Positions 9,390 through 38,553 of a stretch of 64,000 nucleotides of DNA are shown here, piece after piece; position 1 is the first letter of the stretch, and each line of letters starts with the position of its first letter. The notes beneath the pieces were generated by a model. That model was given only the letters and a program-made list of their open reading frames with translations, was not told where the DNA came from and searched no databases. Source of the stretch: Jiella avicenniae (lineage in GTDB: Bacteria; Pseudomonadota; Alphaproteobacteria; Rhizobiales; Rhizobiaceae); assembly GCF_021390325.1 (NCBI RefSeq), contig NZ_JAJUWU010000016.1, positions 1-64,000 on the forward strand. The letters run 5' to 3'. The position numbers and the translations under genes are program-made.

Positions 9390-11597
9390 TTACGCCGCCC
9401 TGGCGGAGGCCCCTTGCGGATCGAACCTTTGGTAGAAGGTTTCGCCCTTCTCGGCCATCTCGCGCAGCAGCGGGGTCGGCTCGAAGCGCTCGCCGAACCT
9501 TGCCTCGAGCTTTTCGCACAGCGCGACGAAGGCCTTGGCGCCCATGCCGTCGATGTAGCTGATCGTCCCGCCGGTATAGGGCGCGAAGCCGAAGCCGAAG
9601 ATCGAGCCGATGTCGGCTTCGCGCGGGTCGGTGACGACGCCTTCCTCCATGGTGCGGGCGGCCTCCAGCGCCATCGTTACGAGGAAGCGCTGCTTCAGCT
9701 CCGTGAAGTCGATCGTCTCCGGGGCCTTCTGGGCAAACATCTCCTTCAGCCCGGGCCACAGTTTCTTCTTGGCGGGCTTTTCGGGATAGTCGTAGAAGCC
9801 CTTGCCGGCCTTGCGGCCGAGCCGCCCGTTCGACACCATGGTCTCGATCAGCTGGAAATGGCGCGGATCGACGGCATCCTCGCCCATGTCGCGCATCGTC
9901 GCCTTCATGATCTTCTGCGACAGGTCGACCGCCGTCTCGTCGTTGAGGGCGAGCGGCCCGACCGGCATGCCGGCGAACTTCGCGGCATTCTCGATCATTG
10001 CCGGCGGCACGCCCTCGACCAGCATGTCGTAGGCCTCGTTCATGTAGCGAAGGACGCAGCGGTTGGCGAAGAAGCCGCGCGAATCGTTGACGACGATCGG
10101 CGTCTTTTTGATCGCCCGGACGAAATCGAGGGCGATGGCGAGCGCCTCGTCCCCGGTCTTCTCGCCGAGGATCACCTCGGTGAGCTGCATCCGGTCGACC
10201 GGCGAGAAGAAGTGGATGCCGATGAAGCGCTGCGGATCCTCGAAGGTCTCGGCGAGGCTGGTGATCGGGATGGTCGAGGTGTTGGAGGCGTAGATCGCGT
10301 CCTTGGCGAGTACCCCGGCGACCTTCTTCGTCACCTCGGCCTTGACGTCGCGGTCCTCGAACACCGCCTCGACGACGAGGCCGGCATCGGCGAGCTGGCC
10401 GTAGTCGGTCGTCGCGGTGATGCGCGAGACGAGGGCCTTGGCGTCGGCCTCGGCCATCCTGCCCTTCGACACGGCCGCTTCGACGAGCTTTTGCGAATGC
10501 GCCTTGCCCTTGTCGGCGGCCGCCTGCTGCTGGTCGATCAGCACCACCTCGAGCCCGCCCTTGGCCGCGACATAGGCGATGCCGGCGCCCATGAAGCCGG
10601 CGCCGACGACGCCGATCTTCTTCAGTTCGCTGGGCGGGACGTCCTTCGGCCGCCGGGCGCCCTTGGCGAGCGCCTGTGACGAGACGAACAGCGAGCGGAT
10701 CATCATCCGCGCCTCGGTGGTGCGCAGCACCTCCGTAAAGTAGCGCTGCTCGACCTTCAGGCCCAAATCCATCGGCAGCAGAAGGCCCTCGTAGACGCAT
10801 TTCACGATCGCCTTGGCGGAGGGATAGTTGTCGCTGGTCTCCTTGCGATAGAGCGAGGCGACGGCCGGCCAGACCTTGGCGCCCGCCGGCGAATAGACCG
10901 GTCCCGAAGGCAGCTTGAAGCGCTCCTCGTCCCAGGGCTTCACCGGCGAGACGCCCTTCTTCAGCATCGCCTTGGCGGCCGAGACGAGTTCGCCGTCCTC
11001 CACCACGGCATCGATCAGCCCCATCTTCAGGGCGTCTTCCGCCGAAAGGGTCGAGCCCTTCATCAGCATCTGCAGCGCGCCCTGGGTCTCCATCATCCGG
11101 GGGACGCGCTGGGTGCCGCCGGCGCCGGGCAGGATGCCGACCTTGACTTCCGGAAGGCCCATATTGGCCGAACGGGCGGCGACGCGGCCGTGGCTCGCCA
11201 GCGCCAGTTCGAAGCCGCCACCCATGCAGGTGCCGTTGATCGCCGCGACGAAGGGCTTGCCGCAGGTCTCCAGCTTGCGCCAGATCCACGACATGCGCCC
11301 GGCCCGCTCGAACAGGGTGGCGATCGCGGCATCCTGGTTCCGGCCTGCCTCGGCGTAAAACGCCTCGAACATCGCGCTGACCGATTTGAGGTCGGCGCCG
11401 CCGGTGAAGGAGCCCTTCTTGCCCGAGGTGATCACCGCGCCCTTGATCGCGTCGTCGGCGACGATCTGGTCGATGATCGCGTCGATCTCGCCCGTCGCCT
11501 CGTCGGTGAAGACGTTCATCGAGCGTCCCGGCATGTCCCAGGTGACGAGGGCGATGCCCTCGGCGTCGGTCTCGACGGTGAAGTTCTGATAGCTCAT
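9390..11597 (-). CDS. fadJ: 3-hydroxyacyl-CoA dehydrogenase/enoyl-CoA hydratase (FadB/FadJ type)
   Basis: A 735-aa bifunctional beta-oxidation enzyme that hydrates 2-enoyl-CoA and oxidises the L-3-hydroxyacyl-CoA with NAD+. The N-terminal third is a crotonase fold: oxyanion-hole GTCMGGGFELALASHG at about residues 115-130 and the catalytic-Glu segment MGLPEVKVGILPGAGGTQR. The dehydrogenase half has the Rossmann motif GVVGAGFMGAGIAYVAAKGG at about 335-355, then SNTSTIPIT and the IGIHFFSPVDRMQLTEVI catalytic-His region, and two C-terminal dehydrogenase domains. I chose the Met of MSYQNF, which has a GGAGCC ribosome site; a Met four codons earlier is the alternative. The partner thiolase lies 1 kb upstream on the same strand, beyond an EAL-domain gene of opposite orientation. 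The symbol follows common annotation; FadB and FadJ cannot be told apart here. Confidence 0.93.
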   Translation of the reverse strand: MSYQNFTVETDAEGIALVTWDMPGRSMNVFTDEATGEIDAIIDQIVADDAIKGAVITSGKKGSFTGGADLKSVSAMFEAFYAEAGRNQDAAIATLFERAGRMSWIWRKLETCGKPFVAAINGTCMGGGFELALASHGRVAARSANMGLPEVKVGILPGAGGTQRVPRMMETQGALQMLMKGSTLSAEDALKMGLIDAVVEDGELVSAAKAMLKKGVSPVKPWDEERFKLPSGPVYSPAGAKVWPAVASLYRKETSDNYPSAKAIVKCVYEGLLLPMDLGLKVEQRYFTEVLRTTEARMMIRSLFVSSQALAKGARRPKDVPPSELKKIGVVGAGFMGAGIAYVAAKGGLEVVLIDQQQAAADKGKAHSQKLVEAAVSKGRMAEADAKALVSRITATTDYGQLADAGLVVEAVFEDRDVKAEVTKKVAGVLAKDAIYASNTSTIPITSLAETFEDPQRFIGIHFFSPVDRMQLTEVILGEKTGDEALAIALDFVRAIKKTPIVVNDSRGFFANRCVLRYMNEAYDMLVEGVPPAMIENAAKFAGMPVGPLALNDETAVDLSQKIMKATMRDMGEDAVDPRHFQLIETMVSNGRLGRKAGKGFYDYPEKPAKKKLWPGLKEMFAQKAPETIDFTELKQRFLVTMALEAARTMEEGVVTDPREADIGSIFGFGFAPYTGGTISYIDGMGAKAFVALCEKLEARFGERFEPTPLLREMAEKGETFYQRFDPQGASARAA

Positions 11598-26860: not shown

Positions 26861-26872
26861 GGAGGATAAGTT

Positions 26873-26974
26873 AGAGCATGATCCCGAAAGGTGGGAACCG
26901 GCTTTCGGAAAAGATCATGCGCAAACAGGAAGATGGAGCGGGAGGATGAGCGAAGCTCATTTCATCCCGCTCTA
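26873..26974. repeat. 102-bp two-hairpin intergenic repeat, copy 2
   Basis: The second copy of the element at 3514-3615, same orientation and identical length. Its first stem reads CCGAAAG / CTTTCGG. Relative to copy 1 the changed base pair is compensated on both sides (A-T becomes G-C), which indicates selection or a functional fold in RNA or cruciform DNA. It lies immediately upstream of the helicase gene. Confidence 0.85.
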
Positions 26975-27276
26975 GGGGCGGTGCGCCGCCAGCGCCAGCC
27001 GTGTCGGCCGAGGCTCGGCGCCGCGAGGCCTTCGCCTGCCCGCCACCTTCGTGACCGCGGATGAACGCCCGCGCATCCTCGCACGCGACGAAGCCCGGAC
27101 GGAACCTTCCGCCCGCACCACGCCCCCACGAAAAAAACCTCGCCGAGGGTTCACATCCGACCGACACCCCGTTATATGACGGCGCGTCGCTGGCGGTCAG
27201 AGCCACGCGGCAAGTTTCGCGCCGGTTTGCTCTGCCATAGCATCCTGCGCAGGCTTCGGTGCCCCCGGGCGCCCGT
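26975..27276. other. Spacer between repeat and tRNA-Gln
   Basis: About 300 bp. Arg-rich frames here do not resemble a protein. The last 80 bases are expected to hold the tRNA promoter. No other element recognised. Confidence 0.4.
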
Positions 27277-28153: not shown

Positions 28154-28452
28154 GGGTTCGACAGCATGCGGGAAGCCGAACCCGACGTTCTCGCCTACAT
28201 GACCTTCCCCAAGGAGCATCGCGCCAAACTGCGGAGCACCAACCCGATCGGGCGCCTGAACGGCGAGATCAACTGCGCACCGACGTGGTTGGCATCTTCC
28301 CCACCGACGACGCCATCACCCGTCTCGTCGCTGCCCTGCTGCTGGAACAGAACGATGAGTGGGCGGTGCAGCGCGCCCGCTACATGACGCTGGAAACCAT
28401 CGCGCCCTTGAGCGATGATCCTCTCGTCAGCCTGCCTGCCGTGGCACGCTGA
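28154..28452 (+). pseudogene. IS256-family transposase remnant (C-terminal tail, frameshifted)
   Basis: The last about 100 codons of a Mutator/IS256-type transposase. One frame gives [20 protein letters not shown] then [15 protein letters not shown]. The next frame continues [40 protein letters not shown] and [18 protein letters not shown] with a TGA at 28450-28452. Intact relatives read [16 protein letters not shown] here, so one base has been lost around 28271-28278. The catalytic N-terminal and central parts are absent, so the element cannot move by itself. It marks past IS activity in this accessory segment. Confidence 0.85.
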
Positions 28453-28768
28453 TCATTCCGGCTCTGCCAGAGAGCATGGCGACCGACACCAGCTACACCA
28501 TGCCCCGCGACATCATCAGACGAGGTCAAAGACCAGAACGCAGAGTTCTCGTAACCCAGTTTCGAAGCCCCGGGTCAGTTCCGGGAGGAAATCGAAAGAT
28601 TGCGACATGTCAGCGATCGGGAACGTGCCGGTTCGGCGAATCTCGGCGCGATGAACCATGTCGTTGGGTAAGATTGCTGCGACGCTACTGTGGCCATATC
28701 GAATAAATTATGTTACCAGTGATTGTATTGCAAATGTAGCGTCCCATTCGCATTGGGGAGCATTGCTC
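28453..28768. other. Likely IS256 right end and promoter of the protease operon
   Basis: The first about 80 bp probably still belong to the insertion sequence (sequence after the transposase stop). From about 28510 a frame reads EVKDQNAEF, a stop, then FEAPGQFREEIERLRH, which looks like another worn gene fragment that I cannot place. The last 90 bp (28680-28768) are AT-rich and should carry the promoter of the next operon; GGGGAG at 28755-28760 is its ribosome site. Confidence 0.45.
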
Positions 28769-30997
28769 ATGCCTTTCTTGAAAACCATTCCTATAGACGA
28801 ATTGGAGCGGATGCTCCTGGATCCGCAGGTTCCGGACCATGAAATTCGTCCCTACCTGATGCCCGATTCCAGCGCCAGTAGCGCATTCGCGCCGCGCGTC
28901 CGGGTCAATCCGTCGCGAATTGCCGGTGTCGGCCCGTCCCAGGGCGTGCGGCCACAATCGGCCCTGCTGCTCAATGCCCTCAATGCCGCAGATCGCTGGC
29001 GGCGGCAGCGGCGTTATCGTGACCGCCTGCCCGGCTGGACGGGGCCCCGGATCGTGTCGGAGGGAGATTCCTGGTTCCAGTATCCATTTCTGCTCGACGA
29101 CGTCGTTGACCAGCTCGACACCGATTTCGCCATCTTCAGCCTCGACGGGGCGGGCGATACGCTCGCCGACTACCTCAAGCAGGATGAGCTCGTCAGTGCG
29201 GTTTTGACCGAAAAGCCTGATGCGGTGATGCTTTCGGGCGGCGGCAACGATCTGTTGGGCGGTGGGCGCATCCGCCATGTCGTCGAACCCTTCGCGCCGG
29301 GGCGACCGGTCGAAAGCTACTTGCAGGCAGCCTTCGACCGCCGCCTGGAAGAGGTGCTCGACGACTATCAAAGGGTGTTGTCGGGTCTCGCGGCGGCGGC
29401 CCCCGATACGCCTGTCTTCATCCACAGCTATGCCCATGCCGTGCCCAATAGCGGCCGCTGGCTCGGCGACCCGCTGGCCAGCCGTGGCATCATCGATCGC
29501 GGTCTGCAACGCGACATCGTCCGCCTCATCGTCGACCGGTTTCATGCCGGGCTCGAAGCCTTGCTGGCCGATCCCGTCTTCGGCCGCCGGGTGACGCTGG
29601 TCGATTGCCGCGACGCGGTCGCCGGGGATCTTTGGTACGACGAGTTGCATCCGAAGGATGAGGGCTTTGCCGCCGTCGCCGCGCGGTTTCGATCGGCCAT
29701 GGCGGTTGTGGGCCCGAGGCGGTCGTCGCGCGGTGTGATCGCGAGCGGACTGCCGGCCACGGTCGGGGCAGGTGCGGCGGCGCGCGAGCAGTCGCCTGCC
29801 GGCGATGCGGTTCTCGCCCTGGCCTCGACCTTTGACGAGACGGTGCTTTGCCGGGAACTCGGTCGTCAGATGACGCTGGCGAGCGGTGACGGCGATCGGG
29901 CAAGCACCCCGCCAGGCGTGCTGCTCAACATGCCCGCCAGTTCGATCGACGGGGCATCGGACGCCCTCTATCTGCTCGGCCGCCGTGTCCTGGCGCGCAT
30001 GCATCGCGAGGTCCAGCGCCTGCTTTGCGGAAACGAACGCGTCGATCAGGAAGATCGCGCCGCGCTCCGCAGTGCCTTCGACCTTGGCCAGGGGGCGGTG
30101 GCGGCCAGCCTTGCGGGGCTCCTGGCCGGCAGCGGCTTCGGCCTGCCGGCGGTGGCGGCGGCGATCGTCGCCTCGATCCTCGTGCGTCGCTTCGCTCGGT
30201 CGGGATGGGAGGAGGTCTGCCTCGCCTGGGGCGAGCAGCTTGCACCGGGGGGAAATGCAAGGCCGCGCCCTGCCGGGATGATCGCGGCCCTTGAAGTGGA
30301 GGAAGTCGCCATGGCAACGAACGAACAACACTTTTGCATCTGCATGACCAAGACGAACGTCGCGATGGGGGAGAAGGCCGCCGTCCTCGACCCCACGAAG
30401 TGGAACCCGCAGGATGTCATCCGGGTGCGTTTTCTGGAGGGCTCGCAGGCGCTACGGGACCGCGTGAAGGCCGTGGCGGAGGAGTGGGTGAGCAATGGCA
30501 TGGCCAATCTCACCTTCGACTGGATCGATCAGGGCGATGCCGAAATCCGCATCGCCTTCGTCCAGGGCAATGGCTCCTGGTCCTATCTCGGCACCGATTG
30601 CCGCCAGATCACCGATCAGAACGAACCGACCATGAACTATGGCTGGCTGACCGATCAGTCGACCGACGCGGACGTGCGGCGCGTCGTCCTGCACGAATTC
30701 GGCCATGCCCTCGGCCTCATCCACGAGCACCAGAACCCGGAGGGCGGCATCGTCTGGAACGAGCCTGCGGTGATCGCCGATCTCTCCGGCCCGCCGAACA
30801 ACTGGTCACTTGCGCAGATCCGTGAAAACGTCCTGAAGCACTACGACCCGAGCGTGATCAGCGGGAGCGATCTCGATCCCCACTCGATCATGATGTACCC
30901 GATCCCGGACGCCTGGACGGTGGGTGATTTTTCGACGGGCTTCAACGACGATCTCTCCGATATCGATCGGGAGGTCATCCGCCAGGCCTATCCATGA
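28769..30997 (+). CDS. SGNH/GDSL hydrolase fused to M12-type metalloprotease
   Basis: A 742-aa protein with two enzyme domains. Residues about 90-315 form an SGNH hydrolase: Ser101 in SEGDSWFQYP, Asn160 in SGGGNDLLGG and the Asp291/His294 pair in YDELHPKDEGF, so the catalytic set looks complete. Residues about 355-490 are helical, with a hydrophobic stretch (about 441-472) that could insert in a membrane. Residues about 520-742 form a metzincin protease of the M12/astacin kind: HEFGHALGLIHEHQNP (zinc ligands His642, His646, His652; catalytic Glu643) and a Met-turn in SIMMYPIP. No signal peptide is seen. The ATG 28769 has a GGGGAG ribosome site. An internal in-frame ATG at 30311 with its own GGAGGA site could give the protease alone (228 aa). 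It is the first gene of an operon with a caspase-like protease 22 bp downstream. Substrates are unknown. Confidence 0.85.
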   Translation: MPFLKTIPIDELERMLLDPQVPDHEIRPYLMPDSSASSAFAPRVRVNPSRIAGVGPSQGVRPQSALLLNALNAADRWRRQRRYRDRLPGWTGPRIVSEGDSWFQYPFLLDDVVDQLDTDFAIFSLDGAGDTLADYLKQDELVSAVLTEKPDAVMLSGGGNDLLGGGRIRHVVEPFAPGRPVESYLQAAFDRRLEEVLDDYQRVLSGLAAAAPDTPVFIHSYAHAVPNSGRWLGDPLASRGIIDRGLQRDIVRLIVDRFHAGLEALLADPVFGRRVTLVDCRDAVAGDLWYDELHPKDEGFAAVAARFRSAMAVVGPRRSSRGVIASGLPATVGAGAAAREQSPAGDAVLALASTFDETVLCRELGRQMTLASGDGDRASTPPGVLLNMPASSIDGASDALYLLGRRVLARMHREVQRLLCGNERVDQEDRAALRSAFDLGQGAVAASLAGLLAGSGFGLPAVAAAIVASILVRRFARSGWEEVCLAWGEQLAPGGNARPRPAGMIAALEVEEVAMATNEQHFCICMTKTNVAMGEKAAVLDPTKWNPQDVIRVRFLEGSQALRDRVKAVAEEWVSNGMANLTFDWIDQGDAEIRIAFVQGNGSWSYLGTDCRQITDQNEPTMNYGWLTDQSTDADVRRVVLHEFGHALGLIHEHQNPEGGIVWNEPAVIADLSGPPNNWSLAQIRENVLKHYDPSVISGSDLDPHSIMMYPIPDAWTVGDFSTGFNDDLSDIDREVIRQAYP
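30298..30313 (+). promoter_or_regulatory. Possible internal translation start for the metalloprotease
   Basis: GGAGGA at 30298-30303 is followed by 7 nt and ATG (30311-30313), in frame with the SGNH-metzincin gene. The protein starting here, MATNEQHFCICMTKTNV, would be a complete 228-aa metzincin domain. The position falls exactly at the domain junction. Confidence 0.5.
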
Positions 30998-31019
30998 ACG
31001 GCAAAGACCGGCCGCTCCC

Positions 31020-33335
31020 ATGAACACAGACGATCATGCCGTGGTGATCGGCGTCGGTCGCTATCCGACCTTGGGCGGGCGAAGCCCGGCCAAGGCCAAC
31101 GACCTGAAGGGGCCAGACGAAGACGCCAAGGCCGTCGCCGCCTGGTTGGCCGATCCGAATGGCGGGGGTGTCCCCGCCGCCAACATCCAGCTGGTTCGAT
31201 CCGCCAACTACGCCGATCCCTTCGATGGTCACGGCCCGCAACCGATCGAAAACGATATCGTTCAAGCGTTCCTGACCGTCGCCGATGCGATAAAGCAGAG
31301 TGGCCACCCGGGTCGACGGCTGTACATCTACGCCGGAGGGCATGGCTTTTCGCCGGAGCGCAAGCGCGGCGCGCTGTTCACAGCCAATGCCGATGACTTG
31401 AACCGCGCCCATCTCTATGTCTCGGAATACTTCAACTGGTTCGTCAACGGTGCCAGCTTCGCGCAATATGTTCTCTGGTTCGACGCCTGCTCCAGTCGCG
31501 ATCGCCTGTTCACGCCGCAGCCACCCAGCTTTCTGCCGAGATTTGCTCCGATGGTGGCGAAAACCGTCGAGATGTCTGCCTATGCGGCCAATTTCACCCA
31601 GAAGGCCGTCGAGAATCTGATCGACGGTCGTGTCCGGGGAGTCTTTACCCACTCTCTGTTGCAAGGGCTGTCCGGCAAGGCCGTCGATCCCGCGACCGGG
31701 GCGATCACCACGGCAAGCCTCAGAAACCATCTCTTCAACGATATGCGCCGGTACATGTCGCAGGATCAGATCGATGATCCCGACATTTCGACCGAGCCCG
31801 ACTTCGGCGCGGTGGACGACTTCGTCCTGATTCCCGGCCTGGCGCCGCCCGCGCCCGCTCCCGCGCCCGTCACTCCGGTCGCCAAGGTCAAACTGAGCGT
31901 CAAAGCGGATGACGAGGCGACGGAAATCCTGCTCGTCAACGAAGCCCATGCGCTTGCCGCGCGAGGGCTGGGCGCGATCGAGATCAAGGTCCCGAAGGGC
32001 CGATATCTCCTGCGAGCCAAGCTCGGCCGCGCCGAACACGAGCAACGGATCGAGCTCGACAGCGAGCGGACGATCCAACTGCCCGGCATTCAGTTCGCCT
32101 CCGCCGCGCCGCTGGCCGGGACATCGCGGATCCATGAGACCCATGAGGCGGCGTCGTTCGATGCCATCGCCCGGATCAACGGGGGACCGGGGGAGCGTGC
32201 CTCGCTGATGGTCATGACGCGCTGGTGGAGCGACACGGCCGAGCATCGCCGCTTCCGGGCGCCCCATTCGGGTCTCACGCTCCTTCATCACGGCAGCGAG
32301 CGGTTCGATCTCGCATCCGGGGCGAGCGAGGGCGACATCGACCGTGACCGCTGGGCGACCCGGACGATCTCGATCGACCCCGGACTGCATCGGCTGGATT
32401 TCCGGATCGGTGGGAAGTCCGCCGCGTCGATGACGATCAGCGGGTTGACCAACTTTCAAACCCGGCTCTATCTGCTCTTTGCGCCCAATCCCGACAATTC
32501 CTTCGAACCGCGGCTGGTCGACGCTTCCGTCTTCATGTGGAACACGCTCTATCCCGAGCGTCCGGACGTCGTCCGCCTCACCGATGCCGCCCGCCTGGCG
32601 CTGGCGGACGAGCGCTCGACACTATCGCCCCAGCTTCTTCAAAGCGCCTGGGGGCGCAAGCTCAACCCGATGATGATGCTCTACGCCCTGCATCACATGC
32701 TCTTGCTGAAGCAAAAGGAGATCGACGACGCGCGCCAAGGCGGTGAACCCGGCGGCGAGATGCCCCAGGGTGCGTCGCGCCCCGTCCGATTCGATCCACA
32801 CCTCTTCGATCTGACGCTGGACGAGGCCGAGACGGTTTTCGGTGAGGACCATCCCGACATCCGCGCCATTCGCTTTGCGGCCGCCCAGGATGCCGGCTTC
32901 CTGCCGATCACCATGCCGCCGATGCTTTGGCCGAGCTGGTCGCGGCTGATGGAGGCGAGCAACCGGCAGCCGCGACTGATTCCCCTCGATATCGCCGAGA
33001 TGGTCGCCGAACAACCGCTCAGTCGTCCGCATTTCGTCTGGTTTCGCCGGTCGGCGCGGCAGATCCGTCGCGGCACGCACGTGGAGGCGGTCGCGGAGAT
33101 CCTGAACCGCGCCGAACGTCAGTCAAGAGAGGTCGGGGCAACGCTGCCACGGCCAGCCGCAGACGGCGGCGCGGAGATCGCGTTCGCTCCTGCGCCGGTG
33201 GCGGATGTGGGAGGCCCCGCCCCAGCGGCTTGGCCGCAATCGGACGCCGAGATGCGGGCGCGGCTCTCCCGCGACATGGGCCTGCCGCGGTCGGTGGTCG
33301 ACGCCGCCTTGGCACGGTGCGGTGCGGGACCATGA
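31020..33335 (+). CDS. Caspase-like (C14) cysteine protease with large C-terminal region
   Basis: A 771-aa protein. The N-terminal about 270 residues are a caspase/metacaspase-type p20 domain. It opens with HAVVIGVGRYPTLGG, then the DLKGPDEDAKAVAAWL helix, and carries the catalytic dyad His108 (YIYAGGHGFSP) and Cys157 (VLWFDACSSRD). A Pro/Ala linker follows (about 278-290). A beta-rich segment (about 295-370) has PEGA-like character, and a second beta region ends near residue 500. The C-terminal part has a Met-rich helix (NPMMMLYALHHMLLLKQKE) and the stretch MPPMLWPSWSRLMEASNRQP before a short helical tail. No signal peptide or membrane segment is seen. It follows the SGNH-metzincin gene by 22 bp, and its stop overlaps the start of the next gene (ATGA). 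Bacterial caspase homologues often act in regulated cell death or defence; that role here is inference. Confidence 0.85.
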   Translation: MNTDDHAVVIGVGRYPTLGGRSPAKANDLKGPDEDAKAVAAWLADPNGGGVPAANIQLVRSANYADPFDGHGPQPIENDIVQAFLTVADAIKQSGHPGRRLYIYAGGHGFSPERKRGALFTANADDLNRAHLYVSEYFNWFVNGASFAQYVLWFDACSSRDRLFTPQPPSFLPRFAPMVAKTVEMSAYAANFTQKAVENLIDGRVRGVFTHSLLQGLSGKAVDPATGAITTASLRNHLFNDMRRYMSQDQIDDPDISTEPDFGAVDDFVLIPGLAPPAPAPAPVTPVAKVKLSVKADDEATEILLVNEAHALAARGLGAIEIKVPKGRYLLRAKLGRAEHEQRIELDSERTIQLPGIQFASAAPLAGTSRIHETHEAASFDAIARINGGPGERASLMVMTRWWSDTAEHRRFRAPHSGLTLLHHGSERFDLASGASEGDIDRDRWATRTISIDPGLHRLDFRIGGKSAASMTISGLTNFQTRLYLLFAPNPDNSFEPRLVDASVFMWNTLYPERPDVVRLTDAARLALADERSTLSPQLLQSAWGRKLNPMMMLYALHHMLLLKQKEIDDARQGGEPGGEMPQGASRPVRFDPHLFDLTLDEAETVFGEDHPDIRAIRFAAAQDAGFLPITMPPMLWPSWSRLMEASNRQPRLIPLDIAEMVAEQPLSRPHFVWFRRSARQIRRGTHVEAVAEILNRAERQSREVGATLPRPAADGGAEIAFAPAPVADVGGPAPAAWPQSDAEMRARLSRDMGLPRSVVDAALARCGAGP

Positions 33336-33820
33336 CGACCGATCGCAGCCCGAGGCTCGATCAGGGTCGGCTCGCTTTTTCTCAAGATTTGATCCTCTCG
33401 GTTCAGCGCCGGGAAACGGGGCCCGGCCGGCGCCGCAATCTCGGCCTTTTGCCGCTTCGTCCCTGCGAAAACGGCCGAGACGGCCGTGATTTCATCGGCA
33501 CGGTCCCGCCAAAGGAGACGGCCTGGCTAGGCCTGCAGGCATCGCACTCCAATCGCGTCTTCACAGTTCGCGTCGCCGCCCGGCCTTCAACGGAAATGGA
33601 ACGGGTGACACGCGAACTTCTAACGCTCCCACCGACGTTCGCTCTGGATCTTGCCGTGCCGGAAGAGCAAGAAGAGGCGCTGTGGATTATCGTCAGCACC
33701 ATGCGGCGTTCGATCCGAATTCTCTTAACACACGAAATATCACCGACGGCTTCCGCGGAAATCGTACCGGAACTCCGCGATCCAAAATTGAGAGCGTATG
33801 GGGGCTGGAGGCTTCCATGA
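33332..33820 (+). CDS. Hypothetical protein, third gene of protease operon
   Basis: A 162-aa protein of no family known to me. It starts with an ATG overlapping the caspase stop (ATGA), which strongly supports translation. The N-terminal 50 residues are polar and Arg-rich. A beta-like core follows (WLGLQASHSNRVFTVRVAAR), then an acidic segment (LAVPEEQEEALWIIVSTMRR) and a final strand-helix region. Its small size and coupling to a protease suggest an inhibitor, an activator, an adaptor or a cleavage substrate; the sequence does not decide which. Its own stop overlaps the next possible start by the same ATGA arrangement. Confidence 0.65.
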   Translation: MTTDRSPRLDQGRLAFSQDLILSVQRRETGPGRRRNLGLLPLRPCENGRDGRDFIGTVPPKETAWLGLQASHSNRVFTVRVAARPSTEMERVTRELLTLPPTFALDLAVPEEQEEALWIIVSTMRRSIRILLTHEISPTASAEIVPELRDPKLRAYGGWRLP

Positions 33821-34017
33821 GCGACTTCACCCAATTGTCGGACGGACGCAACGGATGCCACTGTCGCACCGTCGTTCCATTACAGAAGAATTTCGGCGGC
33901 GACGTGCGGAGGCCCGACCTCCGCCATCAGGAATATCGAACCACTTTTAGAACGGCCGAAAACGCAGTACATCGATTGACTTTGCGCGAGCGTGCTCGGT
34001 CGACTGCATCGCAGTAA
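33817..34017 (+). CDS. Possible small protein at operon end
   Basis: A 66-codon frame whose ATG overlaps the stop of the preceding gene (ATGA). The start reads MSDFTQLSDGRNGCHCRTVV, with a Cys-His-Cys cluster, and the rest is Arg- and Thr-rich without recognisable domain. Codon use is less regular than in the upstream genes and AT-rich DNA begins right after its stop, so it may be the truncated or frameshifted beginning of a once longer gene. The overlap is its only positive support. Confidence 0.35.
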   Translation: MSDFTQLSDGRNGCHCRTVVPLQKNFGGDVRRPDLRHQEYRTTFRTAENAVHRLTLRERARSTASQ

Positions 34018-34597: not shown

Positions 34598-35599
34598 TTA
34601 CTTCGACGTCTTTTCGTAATAGGAGGTGTCGGTGTATTTGGCAGGATCCGTCAGATCCTTTTGCGGCTGGCCGTATTCGCTTCTCAGTTCCAGCACCTTC
34701 TGGACGCCTTCCGGGCTGACCGCGCCGTCCTTGAAGAAGCCGGACTGGTCGTCGAGCAGGATCTTGTAGGAGACCTGGGCGACGGGACCCGCCATCTGCG
34801 GCACGTGCTTTTCGAGGATCGCGATCGCCTCGTCCTTGTTGGCCGGGTCGTAGAGCCAGTCGAGCGCCGCGCGGTAGCCGCCGATATAGCCGACGAGGTC
34901 GTCCTCGTTCTCGGAGGCCCAATCGCGACGGGCGGCGCCGACGACGCCCTGATAGGCGCCGAGCGTCTCCGACCCGTTGCCGAGAAGGTTGAAGCCCTGG
35001 CGTTCGGCCGCGGCCTCGAGCGGCGAGACGAGGAGCGTCGCCGCGAACTTCTTCTCCATCAGCGAGCCGAACCGGCTCATCACGCCGCCGGCCTCGACGA
35101 ATTCGAAATCGTCCTCGGAAAGTCCGTTCAGCTCCAGCATCTTGCGCAGGACGAAGGCATAGCCCGTCGTCAGCGCGTCGACGCCCACCTGCTTGCCCTT
35201 GATGTCGTCGTAGGTCTTCACGTCGGGCACCGAAACGAGACGCAGGAAGCCGTTGTCGACGCCCATGAAAGCGAAGATGTCGGCTTCGTTCTCCGTTTCG
35301 ACGGCGCCCTGGCCCTCGGAATAGGCGACGACATTGTCCATCGCGGTCATGGCGATGTCGAACTCGCCGTCGATCAGGCCCTTCATCTGGAACTTGGAAT
35401 CGGGCGTCGGCGTCACCTCGACCGACACGCCCTTCTCGTCGAAGAAGCCCTTGTCCTGCGCCACGAAGATCGGCCAGTTGAAGCCGCCCGGGAAGACGAT
35501 GACCTTCAACGCTTGCTCTCCTTCTTGGGCGTGTGCGGAAACGGACATGGCGCTCACGGACATGGCCGTGGCCAATGCCAGGGTTTTCAGAACTTTCAT
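34598..35599 (-). CDS. ABC transporter substrate-binding protein, NMT1/TauA type
   Basis: A 333-aa periplasmic binding protein of the nitrate/sulfonate/thiamine-precursor class. The signal peptide is clear (MKVLKTLALATAMSVSAMSV...AHAQ). The mature part starts LKVIVFPGGFNWPIFVAQDKG, the typical first strand and FVAQDKGFF helix, followed by GLIDGEFDIAMTAMDNVVAY and IKGKQVGVDALTTGYAFVLRKML. The start at ATG 35599 has a GGAGGAGAC ribosome site. It is the last gene after the VOC dioxygenase on the same strand, separated by about 170 bp, without a cognate permease or ATPase. It might borrow the TauBC-type permease encoded at 50922-52537; this is a guess. Confidence 0.88.
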   Translation of the reverse strand: MKVLKTLALATAMSVSAMSVSAHAQEGEQALKVIVFPGGFNWPIFVAQDKGFFDEKGVSVEVTPTPDSKFQMKGLIDGEFDIAMTAMDNVVAYSEGQGAVETENEADIFAFMGVDNGFLRLVSVPDVKTYDDIKGKQVGVDALTTGYAFVLRKMLELNGLSEDDFEFVEAGGVMSRFGSLMEKKFAATLLVSPLEAAAERQGFNLLGNGSETLGAYQGVVGAARRDWASENEDDLVGYIGGYRAALDWLYDPANKDEAIAILEKHVPQMAGPVAQVSYKILLDDQSGFFKDGAVSPEGVQKVLELRSEYGQPQKDLTDPAKYTDTSYYEKTSK

Positions 35600-35771
35600 T
35601 GTCTCCTCCTTCAGCTTTTCGGTGATGACGGCGCCGACCCTCTGGAACGAGGCCCGCACGCCGCGTCACGGCGTTCGGCGGCGCGCCGAACGCCGGCTTT
35701 GCGGGGAGGCGGTCCTCCGTCCTCCCCTGGCCTGCAGTCGATATGGCGAGGGGTCCTCCCGACCCCCTCGA

Positions 35772-36656
35772 TCAGTCGAGGAAGCCCTCCGGCGGCGGCG
35801 AACCCCACATGTTCGCGGCGAGCTGGATGTCGTCCCAGACCTTGCCGCGCTGGGGAAACTCCTGATGCACCCGGCGCGGCTCGTAGAGGTCGAGTTCCTC
35901 GTTGACCCTGTCGAGCTCGCAATAAAGCTCGATGATCTGGCCGTCGGCATTGCGGTGATAGGTCGAGAGGTTGTGGCCGATGCCGTGGCGGACCGGCCCC
36001 CAGACGAGAGGAATGCGATCCTTGGCGAGCCAGTCGCAGGCGTCGCGGATATGGGCCCAGTCGCGCAGCTCGAAGGCGATGTGGTGCATCTTCACCTTTT
36101 GCCCGGCGACGAGATTGATCGTGTGGTGATCGGGCCCGCAGCGCAGGAAGGCGAAGAAATCGCCCATCCAGTCCGAGACCTTGAAGCCGAGCACGTCGCA
36201 ATAGAACTTCACGTCGCTCTGGACGTCCGTGCAGTTGAAGGCGATGTGGCCGAGCTTGTTCGGCGAGATGCCGGCGCCCTGGAAGCCGACGCCCGATGGC
36301 TCGGCCTCGACGAAGACCTCCATCTTGGTGCCCTTGGAATCCTCGAAGACGACGGCGTCCTTGACGTTGGGCTGCGGATCGCTCTGGCGGGTCGTCTTCA
36401 GGCCGTTAGCCTCGATCTGCTTGGCATAGGCGTCGAGGTCGATGCCGGGCGCGAGCTGAAAGCCGATCGCATCGCATTTCGCGGCCGATCCCTTGCGAAG
36501 CACGACCGTATGATGATCGCCGCTGGTCGAGAGATAGGCGGCATCATCGCCGCGCTCGACGAGCGTCAGGCCCATGACCTTGCTGTAGTGGTCGATCTGA
36601 CCTTCCAGATCCGGCGTCTGGAAGGCGCCATAGACGATACGGTTGACTTTGATCAT
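35772..36656 (-). CDS. Extradiol ring-cleavage dioxygenase, VOC family
   Basis: A 294-aa two-domain vicinal-oxygen-chelate protein resembling catechol 2,3-dioxygenase, which opens catecholic rings next to the two hydroxyls with Fe(II) and O2. The N-terminal domain (about 1-120) is the non-catalytic repeat. The C-terminal domain has the metal ligands His137 (LGHIAFNC), His192 (MHHIAFELRD) and Glu243 (GQIIELYCELD), plus His226/His229 (RHGIGHN) near the active site. It sits between an FAH-family hydrolase (stop-to-start spacing 14 bp) and a binding protein in one operon, fitting a meta-cleavage route. The true substrate, a catechol or an acid derivative, cannot be read. Confidence 0.85.
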   Translation of the reverse strand: MIKVNRIVYGAFQTPDLEGQIDHYSKVMGLTLVERGDDAAYLSTSGDHHTVVLRKGSAAKCDAIGFQLAPGIDLDAYAKQIEANGLKTTRQSDPQPNVKDAVVFEDSKGTKMEVFVEAEPSGVGFQGAGISPNKLGHIAFNCTDVQSDVKFYCDVLGFKVSDWMGDFFAFLRCGPDHHTINLVAGQKVKMHHIAFELRDWAHIRDACDWLAKDRIPLVWGPVRHGIGHNLSTYHRNADGQIIELYCELDRVNEELDLYEPRRVHQEFPQRGKVWDDIQLAANMWGSPPPEGFLD

Positions 36657-36670
36657 GTCGTTTTCCCGTT

Positions 36671-37549
36671 TCAGACAAACTGATTTTCGAGGGTGCCGAG
36701 GCCCTCGATGGTGACGCGGACGCGGTCGCCGGCTTTGAGGAACTCCTGCGGCTGGCGCCCGAAGCCGACGCCTGCCGGCGTCCCTGTCGCGATGATGTCG
36801 CCGGGTTCCAGCGTCATCATGCCGGAGAGATGCTCGAGGATCGCCGCGACGCCGAAGATCATCTGGCCGGTGTTCGACTTCTGCTTGACGGTTCCGTTGA
36901 CGGTCAGCTCGATGTCGAGGTCTTCCGGGTCGGCGACGAAGCGGGCCGGGGTGATCCAGGGGCCGGTCGGCTGGAACTTGTTCCACGCCTTCTGCATGAC
37001 CCAGTCGATGCCGACGAAGGGGCGCGAGGCGATCCAGTCTCTTGCCGAAACGTCGTTGATCACGGTGTATCCGGCGACCGCGTCGAGCGGATCGCCGCCG
37101 TCGCCCGGTCCGAGACGGCGGCCGATGACGATGCCGAGTTCGGCCTCCCAGTCGTTCATCTTCGCGCCCGATGGCAGGGGCACGTCCTCGCCATGGGCGG
37201 CGAGGCAGGTCTGCGGCCGCATGAAGGCATAGGGAAATTCCGGCGGCGTGGCGACCTTCATCTCGGCGAGATGGTCCTTGTAGTTCGTGCCGATGCAGAT
37301 GACCTTACGCGGGTTCGACAGGGGCGTCAGGTAGTCGATCGTCGCGGGATCCAGGCCACCGCCCGACAACGCGCCCGCACGCTCCGAGAGCCGTCCATCG
37401 AGGTCGGCCCAGTTTGCGAAGACCGCTTCCAGGTTCGACGGAGCGTCGGCGCCAAGGACCTCCGACAGCCGGTGGGCCTTACCCGCGATCAGAACCAGCG
37501 GGGTCGGCTTGCCGTCGAGGAGGCCCGTTCCGAGCTTGTATGCGCTCAT
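36671..37549 (-). CDS. Fumarylacetoacetate hydrolase family protein
   Basis: A 292-aa FAH-superfamily enzyme. It has an N-terminal about 75-residue domain followed by the catalytic domain starting KVICIGTNYKDHLAEM. Metal-binding acidic residues are seen in NDWEAELGIVIGR and GYTVINDVSARDW, and the C-terminal signature LEPGDIIATGTPAGVGFG is intact. Such enzymes split C-C bonds of 3-keto acids or isomerise meta-cleavage products. In this operon, between the dioxygenase and a beta-hydroxyacid dehydrogenase, it probably acts on the ring-cleavage product. The start at ATG 37549 lies 5 bp from the stop of the upstream gene. Confidence 0.88.
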   Translation of the reverse strand: MSAYKLGTGLLDGKPTPLVLIAGKAHRLSEVLGADAPSNLEAVFANWADLDGRLSERAGALSGGGLDPATIDYLTPLSNPRKVICIGTNYKDHLAEMKVATPPEFPYAFMRPQTCLAAHGEDVPLPSGAKMNDWEAELGIVIGRRLGPGDGGDPLDAVAGYTVINDVSARDWIASRPFVGIDWVMQKAWNKFQPTGPWITPARFVADPEDLDIELTVNGTVKQKSNTGQMIFGVAAILEHLSGMMTLEPGDIIATGTPAGVGFGRQPQEFLKAGDRVRVTIEGLGTLENQFV

Positions 37550-37554
37550 GCTTG

Positions 37555-38451
37555 TTATCCTTGTGTCTTGTTGGGGACGGGCAGGCCGGCGGCCTCGGCG
37601 AAGGCCGCGTAGACGGAGGCGACGTCGGTCTTGTCGTAGCCGGTCTCCATCGCCCGATCGTAGAGGCGGGCGGCGCTCGAAAGCACCGGCATGGGGCAGT
37701 CGATCTCCGCCCCCATCTGCTCGATCAGGTGGACGTCCTTGGCGAGCATCGCGGTGGAGCCGAGGACCCGATCCCAGTCGCCCCTGGCCATGCGTTCGGC
37801 CCGGGCCTGGAACTGCAGCGAGGTGCCGGCGCTGGCCTTCAGCGCCTCGATCAGGGTGAGCTGGTCGAGCCCCATCTTGGCGGCGAAGGAGAGCATTTCG
37901 GCGGTTGCCGCGAGATTGGCCGCGACCAGCATGTTGGCGCAGAGCTTCGCCTTCATCGCCGCGCCGAACGGGCCCATGAAGAACAGGTTGTCGGTCACGA
38001 CTTCGAGGATCGGCTTCGCCTTTTCGAAAGCCGAATGGTCGCCGCTGAGGAGAAAGATCGCCTTCTTGGCCGCGAGCATCGGCGGCAGGCCGCTGATCGC
38101 CCCGTCGAGCATGATCCCGCCCCTGGCGGTGACGGCGTCTGCTTCGCGCTGCTTGACGTCGCCGGACAGGGTCGAAAGCTCGACGACGACCTTGCCCGAG
38201 CAGTCGCCGCCGGCGATCCCGGTGGGTCCGGAGATGACCTCGCTCAGCGCGTCGTCGCCGGGAATGCAGCACAGGACGATGTCACTGCCTTCCGCGACCG
38301 CTCGCGGGGAGGCTGCGAACTGGCCCCCGAGCGCCTCGAACTCCGACGGATCGCCCCGCCTGAATCCGAGGACTTCGTGTCCGGCGTCGATGAGGTTCTC
38401 CGCCATGGGCTTTCCCATGTTGCCGAGACCGATCAGGCCAATCGTCGTCAT
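37555..38451 (-). CDS. NAD(P)-dependent oxidoreductase, 3-hydroxyisobutyrate dehydrogenase family
   Basis: A 298-aa beta-hydroxyacid dehydrogenase. The N-terminal Rossmann motif is IGLIGLGNMGKPMAENLIDAG. The substrate-binding segment is DGAISGLPPMLAAKK, and the catalytic Lys sits in FGAAMKAKLCANMLVAANLA. The all-helical C-terminal half shows the family pattern. I start at MTTIGLIG, five codons after an alternative Met, because the dinucleotide fold begins there. Enzymes of this family oxidise 3-hydroxy acids such as 3-hydroxyisobutyrate, tartronate semialdehyde or 2-(hydroxymethyl)glutarate. It is coupled to the FAH-family gene and follows the Liv-type transporter genes in the same operon. 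Confidence 0.88.
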   Translation of the reverse strand: MTTIGLIGLGNMGKPMAENLIDAGHEVLGFRRGDPSEFEALGGQFAASPRAVAEGSDIVLCCIPGDDALSEVISGPTGIAGGDCSGKVVVELSTLSGDVKQREADAVTARGGIMLDGAISGLPPMLAAKKAIFLLSGDHSAFEKAKPILEVVTDNLFFMGPFGAAMKAKLCANMLVAANLAATAEMLSFAAKMGLDQLTLIEALKASAGTSLQFQARAERMARGDWDRVLGSTAMLAKDVHLIEQMGAEIDCPMPVLSSAARLYDRAMETGYDKTDVASVYAAFAEAAGLPVPNKTQG

Positions 38452-38553
38452 CTCATTGCCTCCCATTCGAGTGGACGCGCACGCGGTGTCTCGCTGGAAG
38501 ACCCGATGCCTTGCGCGCCGGCTGTCTCGATGCGGCTTCCGTGCGAAAGCCGA

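Follow-up and report, generated by a model that had tools for sequence, protein, structure and literature searches.

A mobile caspase–metzincin cassette of Jiella avicenniae with features of a protease-activated conflict system

Introduction

What purpose might be served by placing an SGNH hydrolase, a zinc protease and a caspase-like protease in a single bacterial operon? The question is raised by three genes, here called A, B and C, at positions 28769–33820 of a 64,000-nucleotide stretch of the Jiella avicenniae contig NZ_JAJUWU010000016.1; the whole stretch is referred to below as the window. An earlier note on this DNA had pointed to a possible zymogen cascade with links to antiphage defence. 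The analysis presented here indicates that the caspase and its C-terminal region form the recurrent core of a family of gene cassettes, in which a metzincin most often stands directly upstream of the caspase. The cassette of the window is best read as a variant of the protease-activated conflict systems, a group that includes the NucA–peptidase System 3, Canu and LypABC. The components of the operon are as follows.

28769..30997, plus strand: gene A, 742 residues, SGNH hydrolase, helical linker and metzincin; full-length homologues in L032 (Jiella sp. LLJ827) and L033 (Marivita)
28769..29698, plus strand: SGNH/GDSL hydrolase domain of A, residues 1–310, with N-terminal motif IxxDELxxxLxDPxVPD and the residues Ser101, Asn160, Asp291 and His294
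29699..30319, plus strand: linker of A, residues 311–517, mostly helical in a low-confidence model, with a hydrophobic stretch at 449–483
30320..30994, plus strand: myroilysin-family metzincin of A, residues 518–742, with HEFGHALGLIH at 642–652 and the Met-turn SIMMYPIP
30335..30337, plus strand: codon of Cys523, candidate cysteine switch, from its conservation in alignments
31020..33335, plus strand: gene B, 771 residues, caspase and C-terminal region, from PADLOC and NCBIfam matches
31020..31799, plus strand: caspase domain of B, with the conserved dyad His108/Cys157
31884..32543, plus strand: two beta-sandwich domains of B, residues 289–354 and 394–508, predicted by AlphaFold2
32562..33137, plus strand: helical domain of B, residues 515–706, predicted by AlphaFold2 and conserved in homologues
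33332..33820, plus strand: gene C, 162 residues, function unassigned; N-terminal half related to a family of about 300 residues, C-terminal tail YGGWRLP

Results

Integrity of the operon

The three genes are co-directional, with a spacing of 22 base pairs (bp) between A and B and an ATGA overlap between B and C. A check of the sequence bore out the gene order, spacing and coordinates given in the earlier note, together with the numbering of every residue it had listed: Ser101 (in GDSW), Asn160, Asp291 and His294 (in DELH), the zinc motif at 642–652, His108 and Cys157. Judged from the sequence, the operon is real and intact and is predicted to encode three intact enzymes. A hydropathy scan, which is not a signal-peptide predictor, detected no strongly hydrophobic N-terminus in any of the three proteins; on this ground a secreted protease operon was rejected.

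The caspase and its C-terminal region are the constant core

The protein encoded by gene B matches the PADLOC caspase profile (E-value 5.9e-12) and the NCBIfam family caspase_w_EACC1 (7.1e-7; 28.9 bits, far under the cut-off of 140), and its caspase domain gave no Pfam match up to an E-value of 1. In the Pfam, PADLOC and NCBIfam scans, B carried two extra upstream codons (from 31014). The caspase-like protease that had been proposed for the operon is therefore of a kind listed by PADLOC, and its catalytic dyad is intact. The AlphaFold2 model of B, with a mean predicted local distance difference test (pLDDT) score of 60, displays alternating strands and helices in residues 1–260, the part covered by the caspase match, followed by two beta-sandwiches (289–354 and 394–508) and a helical domain (515–706). 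A Foldseek search with this model returned weak matches to small beta-sandwich domains, with no caspase among the 50 matches listed and no clear single match in the PDB.

We compiled 14 records, termed B-type, that hold a caspase together with a C-terminal region as in B; this region is conserved along with the caspase and is sometimes encoded by a separate gene. Besides the window, the set comprises Jiella sp. LLJ827 (L032), Marivita (L033), two strains of Cupriavidus campinensis (L034 and L008), metagenome-assembled genomes (MAGs) of a member of the Burkholderiales (L035) and of Bryobacter (L036), Sinorhizobium terangae (L007), the genomes G123 (L027), G335 (L028), G527 (L037) and G010 (L014), Mesorhizobium huakuii (L020) and S. 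mexicanum (L021). The weak caspase-only matches in G041, G021 and G544 were not counted, and the plasmid caspase matches H3, H4 and H5 were left out. The dyad His108/Cys157 is kept in all 15 aligned homologues, namely the 14 B-type records and the Bradyrhizobium locus L012.

Relatives of B are rare. At least 3 of 397 sampled genomes of the order carry one, as do at least 4 of 398 genomes of the phylum (one of them caspase-only); the samples include the window's own genome and at most two candidates were scored per genome, so that these counts are lower bounds. Further searches with B yielded five loci in one scan of genome contigs, and seven plasmid records with any caspase match.

Co-occurrence of the genes across genomes, which the earlier note had named as a check, was found for the metzincin and the caspase. 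The metzincin gene lies directly upstream of the caspase gene in 10 of the 14 B-type records (nine of 13 if the two C. campinensis strains are counted once), at spacings of -4 to 22 bp; in L008 the distance is 17 bp, with the ATG at 9744. The pairing spans distant bacteria, namely Alphaproteobacteria, Betaproteobacteria and the Bryobacter MAG (Acidobacteriota). A tree was computed for 17 metzincins, and the ten that are linked to a caspase cluster in it (two changes; none of 500 shuffles was as low). Only three of the 14 inner branches are well supported; the Bradyrhizobium sequence groups with stand-alone metzincins and that of Bryobacter is weakly joined to two of them.

The other parts of the cassette vary. 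In two of the 14 records (L014 and L037), the place of the metzincin upstream of the caspase is taken by an alpha/beta-hydrolase-like gene with a GHSTG motif, for which the Pfam matches in L037 are weak (0.03–0.06). A protein with trypsin and NucA parts is encoded near the caspase in four records, as identified by Pfam in L036, L028 and L021 and by similarity in L027, where the gene is convergent. The Marivita locus has an animal-type haem peroxidase gene (L033:4915-6732; 1e-18) directly upstream of its SGNH–metzincin gene. The Bradyrhizobium locus L012, in which no C-terminal region of the B type was detected, holds a trypsin–NucA gene and, 5.7 kilobases (kb) further on, a C-like gene, a metzincin, a caspase and a trypsin–PLD gene in a row. 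The SGNH–metzincin fusion occurs in just three of the 14 records (window, LLJ827 and Marivita) and a short C in five, and A, B and C, which the earlier note had treated as one set, do not form an obligate trio. On the sequences compared, the constant part of the cassette family is the caspase with its C-terminal region, around which other parts are swapped. Separately, L085:8316-10217 contains a gene whose start resembles that of the Marivita peroxidase gene.

The operon is a mobile cassette

The limits of the cassette and the adjoining features on its left side are listed here.

28649..33823, plus strand: extent of the mobile cassette, from blastn against the Jiella sp. LLJ827 locus L013
27277..27350, plus strand: tRNA-Gln (anticodon CTG), at the border of core and accessory regions
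28184..28455, plus strand: Mutator-type transposase remnant, adjoining the cassette in both Jiella genomes

When the whole window was compared by blastn with the 19-kb locus L013 of LLJ827, positions 28649–33823 aligned at 86.9% identity, and the sole other alignment was the 272 bases at 28184–28455. The latter stretch is a Mutator-type transposase remnant by Pfam, in a match (3e-4) that falls slightly short of the cut-off. The caspase gene is present in two of ten Jiella genomes, including that of the window, and absent from the other eight. The left flank, with a helicase gene and the tRNA-Gln gene, is kept in all ten; the right flank (34598–38466) has at most partial matches in the other nine (the best about 475 bases, and none in one genome). 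The flanks of the LLJ827 cassette are unrelated to those of the window, and the tRNA region of that genome lies on a different contig from its cassette. Because LLJ827 holds an 87%-identical operon at a different site with unrelated flanks, the operon can be regarded as a sharply bounded mobile cassette, which in the window appears at the tRNA end of an accessory region. The tRNA-linked accessory segment described in the earlier note is borne out, and its picture of a segment full of mobile-element debris is borne out in part, with one transposase remnant identified.

A phage origin of the cassette was considered and rejected: a tblastn comparison of caspase B with 50,697 phage records gave nothing at 1e-3, and a pattern-based scan of IMG/VR found no match either. 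The linker of A had no match at 0.01 in plasmids. Elsewhere in the window, positions 26872–26976 constitute a repeat, about 104 bases long, of which the searched Jiella genomes contain many more copies (the whole query gave 26 matches in the window's genome alone); the repeat has no Rfam match.

The metzincin belongs to the myroilysin family

The metzincin of A matches Pfam Peptidase_M10 (5.1e-6, above the Pfam cut-off). A profile built from four metzincins matched the PDB entries of myroilysin (5czw, 5gwd and 5zjk) with values of 7.8e-79 to 1.5e-77, compared with 2e-6 for matrix metalloproteases, and the window metzincin alone as query reached myroilysin at 1.2e-48. Based on the zinc motif, the Met-turn and the full-length similarity, the domain is assigned as a myroilysin-like M12A metzincin. 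According to passages of a published account (PMC9848320), a cysteine switch has been proven for the myroilysin family and for no other astacin family.

A cysteine at a fitting distance is conserved in the cassettes. Cys523, located just N-terminal of the catalytic domain, is invariant in all six rows of the alignment, and a cysteine precedes HEXXH by 115–125 residues (150 in Bradyrhizobium) in all ten caspase-linked metzincins; in the protein of Cupriavidus strain MJ1 it is the sole cysteine. The metzincin of A is a clear homologue of myroilysin with a conserved cysteine at a fitting distance before HEXXH, and differs from it in that an SGNH domain and a linker precede it in the protein and a caspase gene is coupled to its own. 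The metzincin of A is probably latent, with Cys523 as the candidate switch. The zymogen-like design proposed earlier is supported by these data and sharpened by the membership in a family with a cysteine switch.

Within A, variation between the window and LLJ827 is greatest in the linker, at 82% identity compared with 93% for the SGNH domain and 94% for the metzincin; the hydropathy of the linker peaks at 1.93. The linker resembles the PADLOC candidate PDC-M35B, weakly in the window (6.2e-3) and more closely in Marivita (7.4e-6; three models), and no such match was found for full-length A of LLJ827. The trypsin–NucA proteins of L012, L027 and L036 match the other component, PDC-M35A (1.4e-4, 1.8e-5 and 3.9e-4), and those of L028 and L021 gave no PDC-M35A match. 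These weak matches hint that two components of one candidate system, PDC-M35, recur around the cassette family.

Two further observations concern this metzincin family. A second member is encoded in the window's genome (L072:8790-9959, contig C11); it has an N-terminal hydrophobic stretch by eye, lacks the upstream cysteine and has no caspase nearby. Positions 30434–30994 of the window match NCBIfam NF050131, 'beta-glucuronidase AbsR1' (1.4e-41; 142.7 bits, cut-off 650), so that either a metzincin is part of the AbsR1 protein or the name given to the family misleads.

The SGNH domain: enzyme or adaptor

The N-terminal domain of A matches Pfam GDSL_2 (2.3e-9, above the Pfam cut-off), with all catalytic blocks (Ser, Asn and Asp/His) present. 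Among SGNH homologues, the serine and histidine are kept in 15 of 15, the asparagine in 14 and the aspartate in 13. Taken with the invariant caspase dyad, the loss of active-site residues in relatives that would have spoken against the earlier note is not what was observed.

With the SGNH domain as query, 6 of 289 genomes of the class matched, one of them the window's. Among the other five, one has a fusion of SGNH to what is by similarity a trypsin, and two genes further on a C1-like peptidase is encoded; in another the SGNH gene is followed by a C1-like gene, and a third adjoins a gene that resembles by eye the C25 gene of L016; no such partner was found in the remaining two. On plasmids, SGNH matches occur in 22 of 37 records, annotated as caspase/C14 (five), amidase (three), S8 (one), DUF882 (one) and hypothetical (four); eight of the 22 have no annotation there, and seven of the 22 loci were examined. 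Besides the metzincin, the fusion partners of the SGNH domain include caspase, S8, trypsin, amidase and DUF882 parts, named mostly as annotated. The short N-terminal motif is common to metzincin fusions, caspase fusions and stand-alone SGNH proteins; the fusions with S8, DUF882 and amidase parts did not show it.

This range of partners raises the possibility that the SGNH domain is a structural adaptor, rather than an enzymatic effector, that carries different peptidases into one complex. The variety of fusions and the motif common to some of them are what such an adaptor would be expected to display. The conservation of the catalytic residues, which a pure adaptor would not need, makes this explanation unlikely, even if it survives better than the other alternatives considered below.

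As a side observation, alphaproteobacterial clusters in which this SGNH domain is joined to, or encoded beside, caspase, S8, DUF882, amidase, trypsin or papain-like parts were seen at L009, L010, L011, L015, L016, L017, L019, L085 and L086, and in L016 chitosanase, L,D-transpeptidase and C25 genes come next. Such clusters would constitute a wider multi-hydrolase class.

Gene C encodes a fast-diverging partner

The protein encoded by gene C had no match in Pfam, PADLOC or NCBIfam at E-values up to 1, nor in PHROGs up to 0.1. Between the window and LLJ827, the ratio of nonsynonymous to synonymous substitution rates (dN/dS) amounts to 0.16 in A, 0.20 in B and 0.32 in C, the last over 162 gap-free codons. 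C can be taken as a real gene because of this ratio and because homologues follow the caspase in three further genomes; a spurious open reading frame was rejected on the same grounds. The synonymous rates (dS) are 0.32 and 0.31 for A and B and 0.94 for C, and the value for C is raised in all three parts tested (0.72, 1.68 and 0.71). C is a constrained gene whose silent-site divergence is about threefold that of A and B; the difference would be explained equally by faster mutation or by an exchange of C among cassettes.

Homologues of C follow the caspase, or the gene for its C-terminal region, in LLJ827, S. terangae, G123 and G335 (where the start of the C gene is uncertain), and all five proteins, that of the window included, end in G-x-x-LP (YGGWRLP in the window, YQGYQLP in S. 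terangae, YRGYRLP in G123). L020 and L021 lay outside this survey, and in G010 the contig stops short of the relevant region. A search of the downstream DNA revealed no C in Marivita and Cupriavidus LMG 19282 (600 bases) or in G527 (500 bases), nor was one seen after the caspase of Cupriavidus MJ1. An apparent remnant was noted in the Burkholderiales MAG (L035:6502-6540), consisting only of the C-terminal peptide DPRAGYRGWRLP, in a reading frame other than that in which the caspase gene ends.

The N-terminal half of C aligns with a family of about 300 residues (hhalign P-value 1.5e-5, probability 80%, 63 columns; 0.69 for an unrelated control). In Bryobacter, Bradyrhizobium and Kovacikia, the gene immediately before that of the metzincin encodes a member of this family, and therefore two forms of one partner protein accompany the metzincin. 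The family also occurs beside annotated small helix-turn-helix (HTH) regulators on three large plasmids (L040–L042), and on 21 IMG/VR contigs, near which no other cassette module was detected. Terminase_6N was found on none of 14 large IMG/VR contigs of this kind (the control was positive in 6 of 14 genomes), and for this reason the relatives of C are not called phage proteins. A search of 200 genomes for the family, run without a positive control, found nothing. The wider family of about 300–400 residues (L044–L064 and plasmids L040–L043) bears the motif RTLRxP..PLPPxLG..RQFVAMPLG and has no assigned function; an HTH regulator neighbour was seen by eye in two of six IMG/VR loci inspected (L052 and L053).

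A small gene coupled by ATGA to the caspase gene, with a silent-site divergence three times that of its neighbours as if it were swapped as a unit, is what might be expected of an immunity gene. The operon would then be an addiction module, with A and B toxic, C protective and the mobile DNA retained by self-protection, and the conserved tail of C could block an active site. Downstream of the caspase, both Cupriavidus records and Marivita lack C, and the Burkholderiales MAG retains only the remnant; no secretion or delivery signal was seen, on hydropathy only. We consider an addiction module improbable.

Defence context

The neighbours of two relatives are defence-like. The opposite strand of LLJ827 encodes, some 0.7 kb downstream of the cassette, an RdrB-like protein (PADLOC 1.5e-30; Pfam A_deaminase 4.3e-10) next to an ATPase of 954 residues that has no PADLOC match at 0.001. 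In S. terangae, a PDC-M01A ATPase (6.3e-146) with an HNH gene lies 3.3 kb downstream. At the S. meliloti SGNH–caspase locus L009, which is not B-type, two nearby genes match PDC-M30/M41 (5.1e-21 and 1.1e-49). The PADLOC scan covered 18 chosen flanking or partner proteins and no control loci; the flanks of the window, L008, L014, L020, L021, L027, L034 and L037 were outside it. A match to IetA in Marivita, which covers the AAA core only (about 130 residues), and the kinase matches beside the Burkholderiales MAG operon were not counted as defence.

Discussion

Comparison with known systems

Bacterial caspase homologues have been reported in several antiphage settings, including Type III CRISPR, gasdermin/CARD, NLR, Thoeris and Canu systems, as listed in passages of PMC12799240. 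The works closest to the cassette are PMC7159879, PMC8195603, PMC12799240 and PMC13236601, each considered here for the passages that bear on it. An SGNH–metzincin–caspase operon was not found in the open PubMed Central literature by title and abstract opening, a search that had subscription papers and preprints outside it.

The passages of PMC7159879 (Kaur et al. 2020) on 'System 3' describe mostly alphaproteobacterial NucA–peptidase operons with trypsin, S8 or papain-like peptidases, for which a proteolytic cascade that deploys an effector was proposed. The trypsin–NucA proteins near the caspase core in four of the 14 records are similar; the window cassette differs in that no NucA-type endonuclease or trypsin domain was found in A, B or C by Pfam, and its core is a metzincin and a caspase. 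In the main text of the same paper the term 'SGNH' is absent, and the metallopeptidase passages concern other systems. The two-gene EACC1–caspase system described there, in which the caspase gene is preceded by an EACC1 gene with a transmembrane helix, was also compared with the cassette and rejected: the match of B to caspase_w_EACC1 lies far under the cut-off, and the gene upstream of B is A, which has no EACC1 match in Pfam or NCBIfam.

In Canu (CanABC), according to the sections of PMC12799240 considered, a three-gene operon encodes a caspase complex that activates a pro-nuclease, CanC, of the metallo-beta-lactamase (MBL) type. The caspase CanA has a C-terminal Ig-like fold, to which the beta-sandwiches predicted in B at pLDDT 60 may correspond; the two proteins are likened by domain layout and not by sequence. 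The Canu partner protein, as described there, forms a complex with the caspase, and it is this complex that activates a hydrolytic pro-enzyme, an arrangement that may have a counterpart in the cassette. The cassette differs from Canu in gene order and in having the SGNH–metzincin protein in place of an MBL-type nuclease, for which no domain was found in A, B or C by Pfam, PADLOC or NCBIfam.

LypABC, a CARD–NLR-like system, includes LypC, a trypsin–endonuclease protein that is essential for gene transfer agent (GTA) lysis in Caulobacter (PMC13236601). The likeness lies in peptidase domains being needed for lysis, and in the resemblance of LypC to the trypsin–NucA proteins beside the core in relatives; the difference lies in the NLR-like ATPase and the CARD-like domain of LypABC, for which the passages considered name no caspase or metzincin component. 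By analogy with LypABC, the cassette could be a regulated module of self-lysis or development, whose cascade lyses a fraction of the cells, for instance to release GTAs, with no antiviral function. The presence of the LypC type of protein near the caspase core in four of the 14 records and the many alphaproteobacterial hosts are compatible with this idea. Unlike a core developmental function, however, the cassette is rare, mobile and absent from eight of ten Jiella genomes. It is also found in Cupriavidus, the Burkholderiales MAG and the Bryobacter MAG, and in the window it has no trypsin–NucA gene. We regard a role in self-lysis as having a small probability, on a par with that of the addiction module.

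A model for the cassette

From the comparisons above, we consider that the chances are about even that the operon is a mobile, probably cytoplasmic, protease-activated conflict system in which the caspase would trigger a metzincin/SGNH cascade. In such a system, C or the C-terminal region of B would keep the caspase idle and help to sense a trigger, which may be a phage. Once activated, B would cleave A in its variable linker; this cleavage would take the segment with Cys523 off the zinc of the metzincin, as in a cysteine switch, and split the SGNH hydrolase from the metzincin. The freed metzincin would degrade proteins and the freed SGNH hydrolase would attack an ester substrate, possibly a lipid or a cell-wall ester, so that the infected cell would be stopped or killed. 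In relatives, the SGNH part is replaced or joined by other putative effectors (alpha/beta-hydrolase-like, trypsin–NucA or haem peroxidase). Canu offers a published precedent for a caspase-activated pro-enzyme, LypABC for lysis that depends on peptidases, and myroilysin for the cysteine switch; it is their combination that we infer for the cassette. That the cassette stands for a distinct class of bacterial immune cascade, in which a caspase unlatches a cysteine-switch metzincin, with exchangeable effectors and a fast-evolving partner C, is a more tentative proposal, to which we give somewhat less credence than to the conflict system as such.

Several observations weigh against this model. No sensor domain (STAND, NACHT or receptor) was found in A, B or C in the Pfam, PADLOC and NCBIfam scans, and C cannot be a universal sensor or inhibitor because it is missing in Cupriavidus and Marivita. 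The metzincin used as query matched 6 of 385 genomes of the class, with seven matches in all; only that of the window adjoins a caspase, and the other six, which are more distant, have none nearby. Myroilysin itself is a secreted elastase, and for this reason the family is not tied to immunity. The cysteine before HEXXH is not special to the caspase-linked set: among seven stand-alone metzincins, four share it at 120–132 residues, two have a cysteine at 95–97 and one, the second Jiella protein, has none. The alignment with the PDB structures starts 11 residues past Cys523, so that its match to the switch cysteine of myroilysin is by spacing alone, and the AlphaFold model of A, with a mean pLDDT of 48.7, is too poor to measure the geometry of Cys523 and zinc. 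The defence link drawn in the earlier note holds in part: two relatives adjoin defence-like genes and four carry a trypsin–NucA protein, and the neighbours tested by Pfam in the window itself, an NMT1-like binding protein and a glyoxalase-family protein, look metabolic and are not defence genes. A defence role of the cassette is suggested by context and precedents.

Ordinary turnover of proteins or polymers by intracellular proteases and an esterase that serve nutrition or housekeeping and are incidentally co-transcribed, an idea that the stand-alone metzincins and the metabolic neighbours in the window would suit, is the least probable explanation, given the patchy presence, the mobility, the exchange with nuclease and peroxidase genes, and the fact that in 10 of the 14 records, which come from distant bacteria, the caspase with its specific C-terminal region is paired with a metzincin.

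If the model of a protease-activated conflict system is correct, the operon would contain a two-tier proteolytic zymogen cascade, parallel to the activation of caspases and matrix metalloproteases in animals. The pairing of a caspase with a metzincin of the cysteine-switch family would then show that bacteria chain both protease classes. The targets of the cascade would become directly testable with three purified proteins, and the exchange of effectors around a constant caspase core would provide a handle to search for further systems.

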